DNA of 41,004 nucleotides, taken from contig WAPX01000021.1 of assembly GCA_015520485.1 (NCBI GenBank), positions 1 through 41,004 of the forward strand, written 5' to 3'. Shown here piece by piece: positions 25,102-27,711 of the stretch. The translations under genes were made by a program, and so were the position numbers. This stretch comes from Archaeoglobaceae archaeon. Lineage in GTDB: Archaea; Halobacteriota; Archaeoglobi; Archaeoglobales; Archaeoglobaceae. Below the pieces are notes generated by a model. That model was given only the letters and a program-made list of their open reading frames with translations. It ran no database searches and was not told where the DNA came from. Position 1 is the stretch's first letter. Every line of letters begins with the position of its first letter.

Positions 25102-25193
25102 ATTCGCTGATGGAGCTGTTTTTATTAATATCGTTTTTAAACAAGTAGCATATAAATATATTATGTATATAGATTAAAAATCTACTAAACATT

Positions 25194-25611
25194 ATGGATT
25201 ACATCAAATCTACAAACTTTGGAGAAGCAAAAAAGAGGTAGAATTAAAGACGCTAACAGCTCTATTATACTTCTTCGGTCTTTCTTTCTATCCTTTTTCG
25301 AAGAAATAAAACTATGTTTTGGTGGGATCTACCACAGACTTAAGAAAATTCTTAAAACAACCAAGAAAGAAAAAAGGAAGGTTGATAGTAATAGATGAAA
25401 CAAAGATAAAACTGGAAAAGAAGCACATCTTTAGGAAGATGTTTTTCTCATACCCATGTTCTCTTAAGAGAAGTATTGAAGTACTGCGAAAATAAACCAG
25501 AAATAGTATGGGCTTTAAAAAAGCTGGTTATAGATTTTTATGGCTTTCTATAACTACTGGGGTGTTTATCTTGACAGTCCCACTTCTCCGCTGTTTCGAA
25601 GGAGTTGGTAG
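25194..25611 (+). pseudogene. Decayed IS6-like DDE transposase (copy 2)
   Basis: ATGGATTACATC at 25194 starts MDYIKSTNFGEAKK. After a one-base shift the frame continues EVELKTLTALLYFFGLSF. Then come YHRLKKILKTTKKEKRK and, shifted again, LIVIDETKIKLEKKHIF with the first catalytic Asp. FLREVLKYCENKPEIV is joined by a deletion to WALKKL. The copy ends with FYNYWGVYLDSPTSPLFRRSW and a stop at 25609-25611. It shares ENKPE, FLREVLK and FYGF blocks with the copy at 12.2-12.6 kb, in opposite orientation. It has several frameshifts and lacks the VDRG and RNAVE parts. Confidence 0.75.
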
Positions 25612-25785
25612 TGATTAATGACCCTCTTTACATTTACCTTCTCGAAATCCTTCAAACGCTGTCTGTTGGCTTTACGTAATAGTTGAAGCACAGACGAAAC
25701 TTCTGGTAAAATGCTGTAGAGGTCAAAGAGATGACGTTAAAGGTAGTTCCAGCAATTATACAATGCAATTTCAACCAGACCAAAC

Positions 25786-25813
25786 AGTAAACCTTTTGAA
25801 ATTAAGGTTTACT
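25786..25813. promoter_or_regulatory. BirA-like biotin operator before bioY
   Basis: AGTAAACCTT at 25786-25795 and AAGGTTTACT at 25804-25813 are perfect 10-base inverted arms separated by eight bases. GTAAACC and GGTTTAC are the known half-sites of the biotin repressor BirA, which in bacteria and some archaea controls biotin genes; here the gap between CC and GG is 12 bases. The repeat is 7 bases before the bioY ATG, with a TATA-like TTATAC near 25756, so a bound protein would cover the transcription start. Confidence 0.7.
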
Positions 25814-25820
25814 TACGTGC

Positions 25821-26459
25821 ATGGTTACGAACAGAACACACTCAAATACGCTACGGATTAGCCTTGCCGTACTCCTCGCAGCGGTTACAGCTGTTAGCGC
25901 TCAGCTGAAGTTTAATCTGGGTCCGGTACCCTACACGATGCAGAATTTTGGAATCGTACTTTCCGGACTCGTGCTGGGCAGGTACGGGGCGTTAGCCCAG
26001 CTGATATACCTCGGCATGATCGCCGCAGGCTTGCCCGTTGCAAGCGGATTTAAAGGTGGACTGGGCGTTCTGTTTGGATTTACAGCGGGTTATCTCTGGG
26101 CTTTTCCAGTAGCAGCCTTTCTCGTTGGTATTGCGAGGGAAAAAATATGGAGGCAGAGAAATCGCAGGGAGCTGTTTTTGCTGTGGCTTTCGAGCTGTTT
26201 CGCCGTTCTACCGGTTTACCTGCTGGGATTCTACGTATTCTACAAATTCGCCACGGGTGGTAAGCTTTCCCCTCTGCTCCTGAAGTACTGCAGGGCTGTG
26301 GAGAGCAAACTGGGATTAAAGCTTTCGACTTTTTCGATGATATTTCTGGCTTCAGTCGCAATCTTCATACCTCAGGACTACTTCATGGATCACGTTTTCG
26401 CAGTTCTGGCGTTTGCCTACGTTGACAGGTTGATGAGGGAAAGGGGAATAGAGCTTTGA
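25821..26459 (+). CDS. bioY: BioY-type biotin transporter substrate-binding component
   Basis: The 212-residue membrane protein matches BioY, the biotin-binding S component of an energy-coupling factor transporter. It has LLAAVTAVSAQLKFNLGPVPYTMQNFGIVLSGLVLGR near the N terminus, then a GGLGVLFGFTAGYLWAFPVAAFLVG helix pair and a C-terminal FIPQDYFMDHVFAVLAF helix. The hydrophobic segments suggest six membrane helices. It is somewhat longer than usual because of a charged loop (REKIWRQRNRRE). It is the first gene of a three-gene operon with the ATPase and EcfT, and no ribosome binding site is visible, which suggests a leaderless message. Confidence 0.93.
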   Translation: MVTNRTHSNTLRISLAVLLAAVTAVSAQLKFNLGPVPYTMQNFGIVLSGLVLGRYGALAQLIYLGMIAAGLPVASGFKGGLGVLFGFTAGYLWAFPVAAFLVGIAREKIWRQRNRRELFLLWLSSCFAVLPVYLLGFYVFYKFATGGKLSPLLLKYCRAVESKLGLKLSTFSMIFLASVAIFIPQDYFMDHVFAVLAFAYVDRLMRERGIEL

Positions 26460-26472
26460 GGTTCAAAAACAC

Positions 26473-27711
26473 ATGAGGGGAGCGGAAAAGGTAATAGAGG
26501 TAGATGCAAGTTACACGTATCCCACGGGAAAAAGAGTTGGCCTGTTTTTCGAAGCACTCGAAGGAGAGAAGGTCTTCGTTACGGGGAAGACTGGATGCGG
26601 CAAATCAACGCTGATGAGAGTTTTAAACGGGTTAATTCCAGAGCTTTACGGGGGAAAACTTGAAGGTAAGGTCAGAGTTTACGGTAAAAAAGGTAATAAC
26701 AGGGACGTCTTTCTGGTTACCCAGTACCCCGAAGAGCAGGTAATTTGCGGAAGTGCTGTGGAAGAGGTGGCGTTTCCGCTGATCCAGAGAGGCTGGAACT
26801 ACAGAGACGCTGTAGAGGTGGCTGAAAAAACTCTCGAAGAGTTTGGAATACTCCATTTAGCGGGTAGAGACCCTCACAAACTTTCTGATGGAGAAAAGCA
26901 GGCGGTAATAGTTTGCAGTGCTGTTGCAAGTGGGAGTGCGTGTCTGGCGTTTGATGAGCCCTTTGCACATCTCCACCCGAAGCTGGCAGAAAAGATCGTG
27001 AAGATGATTTTAAAGAGTGACAGAACGGTTATTCTCTCCGAACACCGAACAGAGCTGTCTGATGGCTTCAGAGTGTTCAGCATGAATTCTGGCCACGAAG
27101 CAGATGCTCTCGACAGAATCAGGAGTTTTGATTTGAAATGCGGTGAGTGTCGAGTTGACACCTCAGATTCCGGAAAAACTCTGATAGCTGCCAGAGACGC
27201 AAGGGTTTACAGGGAGAAAAGAGTCGTAATCGATGGTCTGAATTTAAAAGTAAAGGAGGGCGAATCCGTTGCAATCACCGGGGTTAACGGTGCTGGCAAA
27301 ACCACCCTGCTTAGAGCCCTAGCGGGATTTGAAAAGAGCGAAGGAATAGAAGTAAGGGGAAAGGTTGGAATGGCCTTTCAGTATCCCGGATACAGTTTGA
27401 ACTCCAGCACAACCAGAGAAGAGGTATCAAAAGAGCTTTTGTCGGAGTTTTGCCTAGAGGATCTGGCGGAGAGGCACCCCCACTCTTTAAGTGGTGGGGA
27501 AAAGAGGATTCTTTCAGCCCTGAAGGCGTTAGGAGCAAAAATCGTGCTGCTGGATGAGCCTACGGCGGGGCTTGACAGAGAACTGAGAAGGGCGTTCATA
27601 TCTAAGCTTGTGAGCGTTGTTAAGGCCAAAAAGAAAGCAGCAGTTATAGCGACTCACGATCGTGAAGTTGCTGAAATCTGCGGCCGGGAAGTGGAGATCG
27701 AACATGTCTGA
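26473..27711 (+). CDS. ECF transporter ATPase, two fused ABC domains
   Basis: The 412-residue protein is a tandem fusion of two ABC ATPase domains, which in other species are separate EcfA1/EcfA2 or BioM copies. Domain 1 has Walker A GKTGCGKST, signature KLSDGEKQ and Walker B LAFDEP. Domain 2 has GVNGAGKTT, signature SLSGGEK and LLDEPTAGLD. It powers uptake with the BioY and EcfT proteins encoded on either side. The first signature is LSDGE rather than LSGGE, so one site may be weaker. It begins 13 bases after bioY and overlaps ecfT by 8 bases. Confidence 0.9.
   Translation: MRGAEKVIEVDASYTYPTGKRVGLFFEALEGEKVFVTGKTGCGKSTLMRVLNGLIPELYGGKLEGKVRVYGKKGNNRDVFLVTQYPEEQVICGSAVEEVAFPLIQRGWNYRDAVEVAEKTLEEFGILHLAGRDPHKLSDGEKQAVIVCSAVASGSACLAFDEPFAHLHPKLAEKIVKMILKSDRTVILSEHRTELSDGFRVFSMNSGHEADALDRIRSFDLKCGECRVDTSDSGKTLIAARDARVYREKRVVIDGLNLKVKEGESVAITGVNGAGKTTLLRALAGFEKSEGIEVRGKVGMAFQYPGYSLNSSTTREEVSKELLSEFCLEDLAERHPHSLSGGEKRILSALKALGAKIVLLDEPTAGLDRELRRAFISKLVSVVKAKKKAAVIATHDREVAEICGREVEIEHV

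Follow-up and report, generated by a model that had tools for sequence, protein, structure and literature searches.

A conserved, probable BirA operator at bioY in an archaeon, with a candidate second target at the PEP carboxylase gene

We analysed a 41,004-nucleotide stretch of DNA from an Archaeoglobaceae archaeon (hereafter the window) and found directly ahead of the biotin transporter gene bioY a palindrome that we read as an operator through which the biotin ligase BirA controls the bioY-ecf operon. The same BirA would act at a second site with the same 12-base spacer (N12) at ppc, the gene for PEP carboxylase, and so switch the route by which the cell makes oxaloacetate. We put the probability of this reading at roughly 85%. 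The features of the window that bear on it are collected in Table 1.

Table 1. Features around the bioY start, in window coordinates.
Feature	Position	Strand	Remarks
Predicted BirA operator, AGTAAACCTT-N8-AAGGTTTACT	25786..25813	.	exact match
Operator core half-sites, GTAAACC and GGTTTAC	25787-25793 and 25806-25812		spacer 12
TATA-like element, TTTTGAAA	25794..25801	+	inside operator spacer, 27 bases before ATG; weak score
bioY, biotin-binding S component of ECF transporter, 212 aa	25821..26459	+	ORF; PF02632 BioY, E 3e-28
Fused ECF ATPase, presumably ecfA-ecfA', a single 412-aa protein with two ABC units	26473..27711	+	
Probable transmembrane component EcfT, at most 220 aa	27662..28324	+	weak TIGR02454 match

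The plus strand at 25786-25813 reads exactly AGTAAACCTT-TTGAAATT-AAGGTTTACT, a perfect inverted repeat with 10-base arms around 8 bases, and the bioY ATG at 25821 follows after 7 bases. An earlier note on this DNA had described a BirA-like palindrome here; the match is exact and, as a BirA-type site, far above shuffle expectation. With up to three mismatches allowed, the full palindrome pattern matches the window once (shuffle mean 0.01), and the pattern GTNAACC-N10..16-GGTTNAC also matches once (mean 0.017). Bare perfect 10-base arms with gaps of 4–12 bases likewise occur once, against a mean of 0.4 over 60 dinucleotide shuffles. As a bare palindrome the repeat is unremarkable in the window; as a BirA-type motif, chance is excluded. 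In the whole 1.57-Mb genome this is the sole copy of GTAAACC-N12-GGTTTAC at 0–1 mismatch; when the spacer is allowed to vary, a looser pattern occurs twice, and its reversed control not at all.

A fused ATPase and a probable EcfT follow bioY in its ecf operon. The fused ATPase matches PF00005 in two stretches, and ECF/cobalt ATPase models are among its best NCBIfam matches, below their cut-offs. The probable EcfT has no match in the Pfam profile search and matches the CbiQ T-component model TIGR02454 at E 2.4e-4, below cut-off; its translation may in fact begin at an ATG further inside the frame. Upstream of bioY, window positions 25178-25760 hold several broken ORF fragments that resemble a decayed insertion sequence. 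An origin of the operator from a mobile element was considered and dropped, as the site is kept in relatives with unrelated flanks.

The inverted GTNAACC/GGTTNAC half-sites of a BirA operator are present exactly at 25787-25812, and the site lies at a biotin transport operon, as expected of an operator at biotin synthesis or transport genes (bioY-ecf here; bioF/bioB in the related genome G033). What departs from the usual form is the spacing. In E. coli, the BirA operator has a spacer of 16 bases, and the window site, at 12, falls outside the range N14–N16. The earlier note had called the spacing shorter than usual, and this is so when 12 is set against the N14/15 given for bacterial operators (PMC545781). 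Since differences in operator spacing between BirA lineages are already known, as between E. coli and B. subtilis (PMC4016012), a spacer of 12 marks a variant of the BirA operator and not exclusion from that class.

We then compared the site across genomes. Among the five members of the genus that have bioY, the operator and its spacer form a conserved block between diverged flanks. Our sample of the order Archaeoglobales comprised 57 genomes, 51 of them with bioY; in these 51 the operator was found at 0 mismatches in 31, at 1 in 12, at 2 in one, and not in seven, so that 43/51 carry it at 0–1 mismatch with spacers N11–N13. By spacer, the order's bioY sites divide into N13 (30), N12 (nine) and N11 (five). 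Outside the order, the phylum sample held 104 further genomes with bioY, and 50 of their bioY starts were examined: 40 carried the site at 0–1 mismatch with spacers N13–N16 (31 at 0 mismatches, nine at 1), one had 2 mismatches and nine had none. The N12 spacer of the window is, by sequence comparison, the short end of a lineage-specific continuum from N11 to N16. On a BirA tree, in which the spacer was taken from ppc for G043 and from bioF/bioB for G033, the spacer classes need five changes, spacing follows the tree within the order, and the window's genus shares N12 with its sister genus g5 (support 95). The short spacing is a lineage trait. This conservation, together with the co-variation with the BirA domain described below, supports the proposal of a BirA operator ahead of an archaeal biotin ECF operon.

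G033 is the only one of the 57 genomes with a bioB match over cut-off, and it has no bioY; in the classical arrangement, its divergent bioF-like and bioB genes flank an N13 BirA-type site (L134:1272-1298, G033:C34). Across the 57 genomes the strict variable-spacer pattern matched 71 sites, against 16 for the reversed pattern. Of the 71, 31 lie at bioY, six at ppc, one at bioF/bioB and 33 elsewhere; the 14 of these 33 that were inspected all overlap ORFs of at least 70 aa.

A search of the window's genome for more copies, as the earlier note had proposed, turned up one further intact site. It reads GTTAACC-N12-GGTTAAC (G000:C9:3833-3858) and covers the ATG (3850) of ppc, whose product is an archaeal-type, biotin-independent PEP carboxylase (PF14010, E 4.7e-176), and this is the only intact site in the genome besides the bioY operator. 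It is present without mismatch in 6/6 members of the genus and with one mismatch in the sister-genus genome G020, and in all six genomes of the order in which both sites were read the spacer at ppc equals that at bioY (N12). The site is conserved within the genus, but most other Archaeoglobales ppc genes are without it: of the order's 27 genomes with a PEPC match, 25 had a ppc start to scan (all but G002 and G037), and 18 of these 25 carry no site at 0–1 mismatch. Most of the order's genomes that lack the ppc site still keep the BirA domain. In other families of the phylum, 8/20 ppc starts carry a site at 0–1 mismatch, with spacers N14–N15 and 80–115 bases before the conserved MSTQHPD motif, as compared with a control rate of 2/1281 windows; ten further stretches before longer ppc genes gave two 1-mismatch sites. 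A wider contig scan covered 80 PEPC loci, of which four had 0-mismatch sites, all in genus members already counted. The four genomes of family f23 in which the BirA recognition helix has decayed have no ppc site.

The most serious alternative is that BirA controls bioY, while the ppc sites are non-functional, arising by chance or as a by-product of a protein that starts with Met-Val-Asn. In Archaeoglobales the right half-site is partly coding, as its usual reading is ATG GTT AAC, and this, with the 18 of 25 siteless ppc starts in the order, speaks for the alternative. Against it stand the non-coding left half-site, the match of the ppc spacer to the bioY spacer in six genomes of the order, the N14–N15 sites ahead of MSTQHPD in other families, the control rate and the absence of the site in the f23 genomes with decayed helices. 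We consider this alternative unlikely.

In genus g12 (L155-L158), the ppc genes have only look-alikes that differ from the pattern at two or more positions. About 50–60 bases upstream of ppc, immediately ahead of the TATA-like box, a half-site-like GTNAACC is followed by GGWAAC, possibly a diverged BirA site.

Returning to the reading of one BirA acting at both sites, the genome encodes a single biotin ligase, a 323-aa protein in which Pfam recognises an N-terminal HTH_11 (E 2e-14), the ligase domain BPL (1.6e-24) and BPL_C (4e-9). The best solved-structure match of this ligase is E. coli BirA (1bia). NCBIfam TIGR00122 (birA_repr_reg) scores 53.1 bits against a cut-off of 70 (E 2.1e-14); this sub-cut-off score counts against the reading, and a diverged member may score in this way. 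The earlier note had named as grounds for rejection a genome whose only BirA lacks a DNA-binding domain; because the single ligase carries HTH_11, that is not the case here. Self-regulation of birA found no support, in that no operator was seen at the genome's own birA in a scan of 51 BPL loci, which gave three matches at 0–1 mismatch (L084, L091, L179), two of them with N10 spacers. In G179 and G084 (L399:563-636, L400:451-525), the stretch from birA to bioY holds two tandem BirA-type sites about 40 bases apart.

The operator and the DNA-binding domain vary together. Among the order's bioY genomes, 42 have both the operator and the domain, five have neither, none is discordant and four are unresolved; the table leaves out G030, where a contig end truncates the BPL, three genomes in which no BPL was found (G035, G049, G051), and G054, which has no bioY. 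Pfam recognises no HTH in the six short ligases of clade g13 but does so in those of G048, G050, G001 and G042. For the rest of the phylum 20 stretches were taken for BirA, five of them without an adjacent BPL. A recognition-helix core R-x-x-V-W-K, a motif picked after inspection of the ligases, is present in 52/52 readable operator-bearing genomes and in 0/11 operator-less ones. The operator-less genomes G112, G164, G175 and G190 (family f23), G104 and G152 keep a winged-helix-like N-terminus from which this core is gone, and G059, with R changed to Q in the recognition helix, has degraded sites only. The operator is absent where the BirA domain has been lost, in few independent losses: with the operator-less genomes confined to perhaps three or four clades, far fewer independent events underlie the 52/11 split. 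In clade g13 (L017-L023) bioY is apparently of a different kind, with higher Pfam scores and no operator, and the readable ligases lack the DNA-binding domain; since this bioY differs from the others, replacement of bioY is there confounded with loss of the domain. In G190 and G175, from the genomes of L421-L426, bioY begins a few bases past the preceding stop codon.

BirA is the likely binder, since the readable ligases of operator-less genomes lack the domain or the helix and those of operator-bearing genomes keep the helix. The earlier note had also allowed for a different regulator, and a true operator read by another protein with the same half-sites, BirA's winged helix being uninvolved, would accord with an N12 spacer shorter than the published N14/15 consensus and with the assignment of BirA as binder from sequence. 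We set it aside as improbable because the operators vanish with the recognition helix (52/52 vs 0/11, and degraded sites in G059) and because spacing, with N12 inside the N11–N16 continuum, follows the BirA tree within the order and needs only five changes on it. That the palindrome is no operator at all, but an RNA hairpin, a repeat arisen by chance or the terminus of a mobile-element remnant, is barely credible: perfect 10-base palindromes are not rare (shuffle mean 0.4 per window) and broken ORF fragments lie upstream, yet the sequence matches a known repressor consensus, is kept across the genus despite unrelated upstream flanks and recurs at a similar position in the order.

How BirA would repress depends on where the operator lies relative to the promoter. 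With a hand-weighted matrix applied to 27 promoters, the best TATA-like element fell 27–32 bases before the ATG in 26; the exception, G013, has its top score at -43 and its second at -30. At bioY of the window's genus the operator runs from -34/-35 to -9/-10 with the TATA-like element (-27/-28) within the spacer, and three relatives have TTTTTAAW at the same distance from the bioY ATG. At bioY of the other genera checked and at ppc of the window's genus, the operator lies downstream of the TATA-like element and spans the start codon, running from about -18 to +8 (extremes, -14 to +12). The suggestion that the operator covers the transcription start therefore has to be divided: it fits the genome's own ppc and the bioY of other genera, and it does not fit bioY in the window's genus, where the operator, to judge by sequence, probably encloses the TATA-like element and not the start site.

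The following sequence of events can be proposed, in which we infer BirA binding, its ligand and the direction of regulation, namely repression. When biotin is ample and the carrier protein is charged, BirA loaded with biotinyl-5'-AMP would dimerise, by analogy with characterised BirA, and by the same analogy the dimer would bind both GTAAACC half-sites. Over the predicted TATA-like element of bioY-ecf it would block TBP/TFB and turn biotin uptake off; at the ppc start codon it would block the polymerase. One dimer would thus impose two different blocks, as its N12 operators lie around a TATA-like box at bioY and over a start codon at ppc. ppc would then be repressed while the biotin-dependent pyruvate carboxylase (PYC) is active, and released when biotin is short. 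The window's genome encodes PYC subunit B and one biotin-carrier domain (EAMKM), so the state of BirA could report the extent of PYC biotinylation. For part of the phylum, we incline modestly to the view that BirA reads biotin-carrier charging and selects the enzyme for oxaloacetate, with the window's genus using two N12 placements.

Taken alone, the bioY site is an ordinary operator of an already predicted kind. Rodionov, Mironov and Gelfand reportedly predicted, in 2002, archaeal BirA operators before biotin genes, bioY included, and the present system resembles that regulon in having a BirA with a DNA-binding domain and operators before biotin genes. It also resembles bacterial BirA systems (E. 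coli bioO; B. subtilis bioO/yuiG/yhfU) in its GTAAACC/GGTTTAC-type half-sites, of the E. coli-type consensus, in its group II ligase with an N-terminal winged helix and in its biotin transport or synthesis targets. Unlike these, it has a spacer of 12 (11–13 in the order), an archaeal TATA/TFB promoter, an operator that probably encloses a TATA-like element at bioY, and ppc as an extra candidate target. BirA regulons that reach into the metabolism adjoining a biotin enzyme have been described by Leyn et al. for the fatty-acid genes fabF, fabH and acpP in Desulfovibrionales (PMC5343134); the archaeal added gene differs from these in being a biotin-independent substitute, PEP carboxylase, for the biotin enzyme. 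In Corynebacterium glutamicum PEPC supplies oxaloacetate when biotin limits PC, according to the accessible portion of PMC11457263, which places the biotin genes under BioQ and describes no BirA operator at ppc. According to PMC8100219, which reviews the PEP-pyruvate-oxaloacetate node, there is no evidence in bacteria for a circadian-linked, biotinylation-based carboxylase regulation of the kind proposed in mammals. We recognised no report of BirA control of ppc among the papers listed in searches on BirA with PEP carboxylase, archaeal BirA, the BirA regulon, or the two carboxylases with biotin and repression. Archaeal BirA regulation has been in print since 2002, and the link to PEP carboxylase is without a recognised earlier report.

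If the proposal is right, archaeal central carbon metabolism would be directly coupled to a vitamin sensor, a regulatory link open to testing in cultured species. The N11–N16 spacers, the different placements and the decayed helices offer material for studying repressor geometry and operator co-evolution, and the same natural variation bears on how a dimeric repressor blocks the archaeal transcription machinery.

We also asked how the ppc operator relates to PYC. PYC is present in 15/17 genomes whose ppc has the operator and in 22/38 whose ppc has none (Fisher 0.025, uncorrected for kinship, from a table of 17 and 38 genes tallied by hand), a weak association. The PYC genes themselves had no operator in the eight PYC loci scanned, nor in longer stretches of three genus members. 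In four methanogen-type genomes (G179, G084, G124, G132) the operator-led bioY operon continues into a pyruvate-carboxylase subunit gene, so biotin-loaded BirA might there repress both carboxylases, which would weaken an either/or switch. Biotin-carrier domains vary in number: G041 has two in one 187-aa chain (L419:1572-2135, G041:C2), and G042 and G044 have two or more biotin-carrier matches in one open frame.
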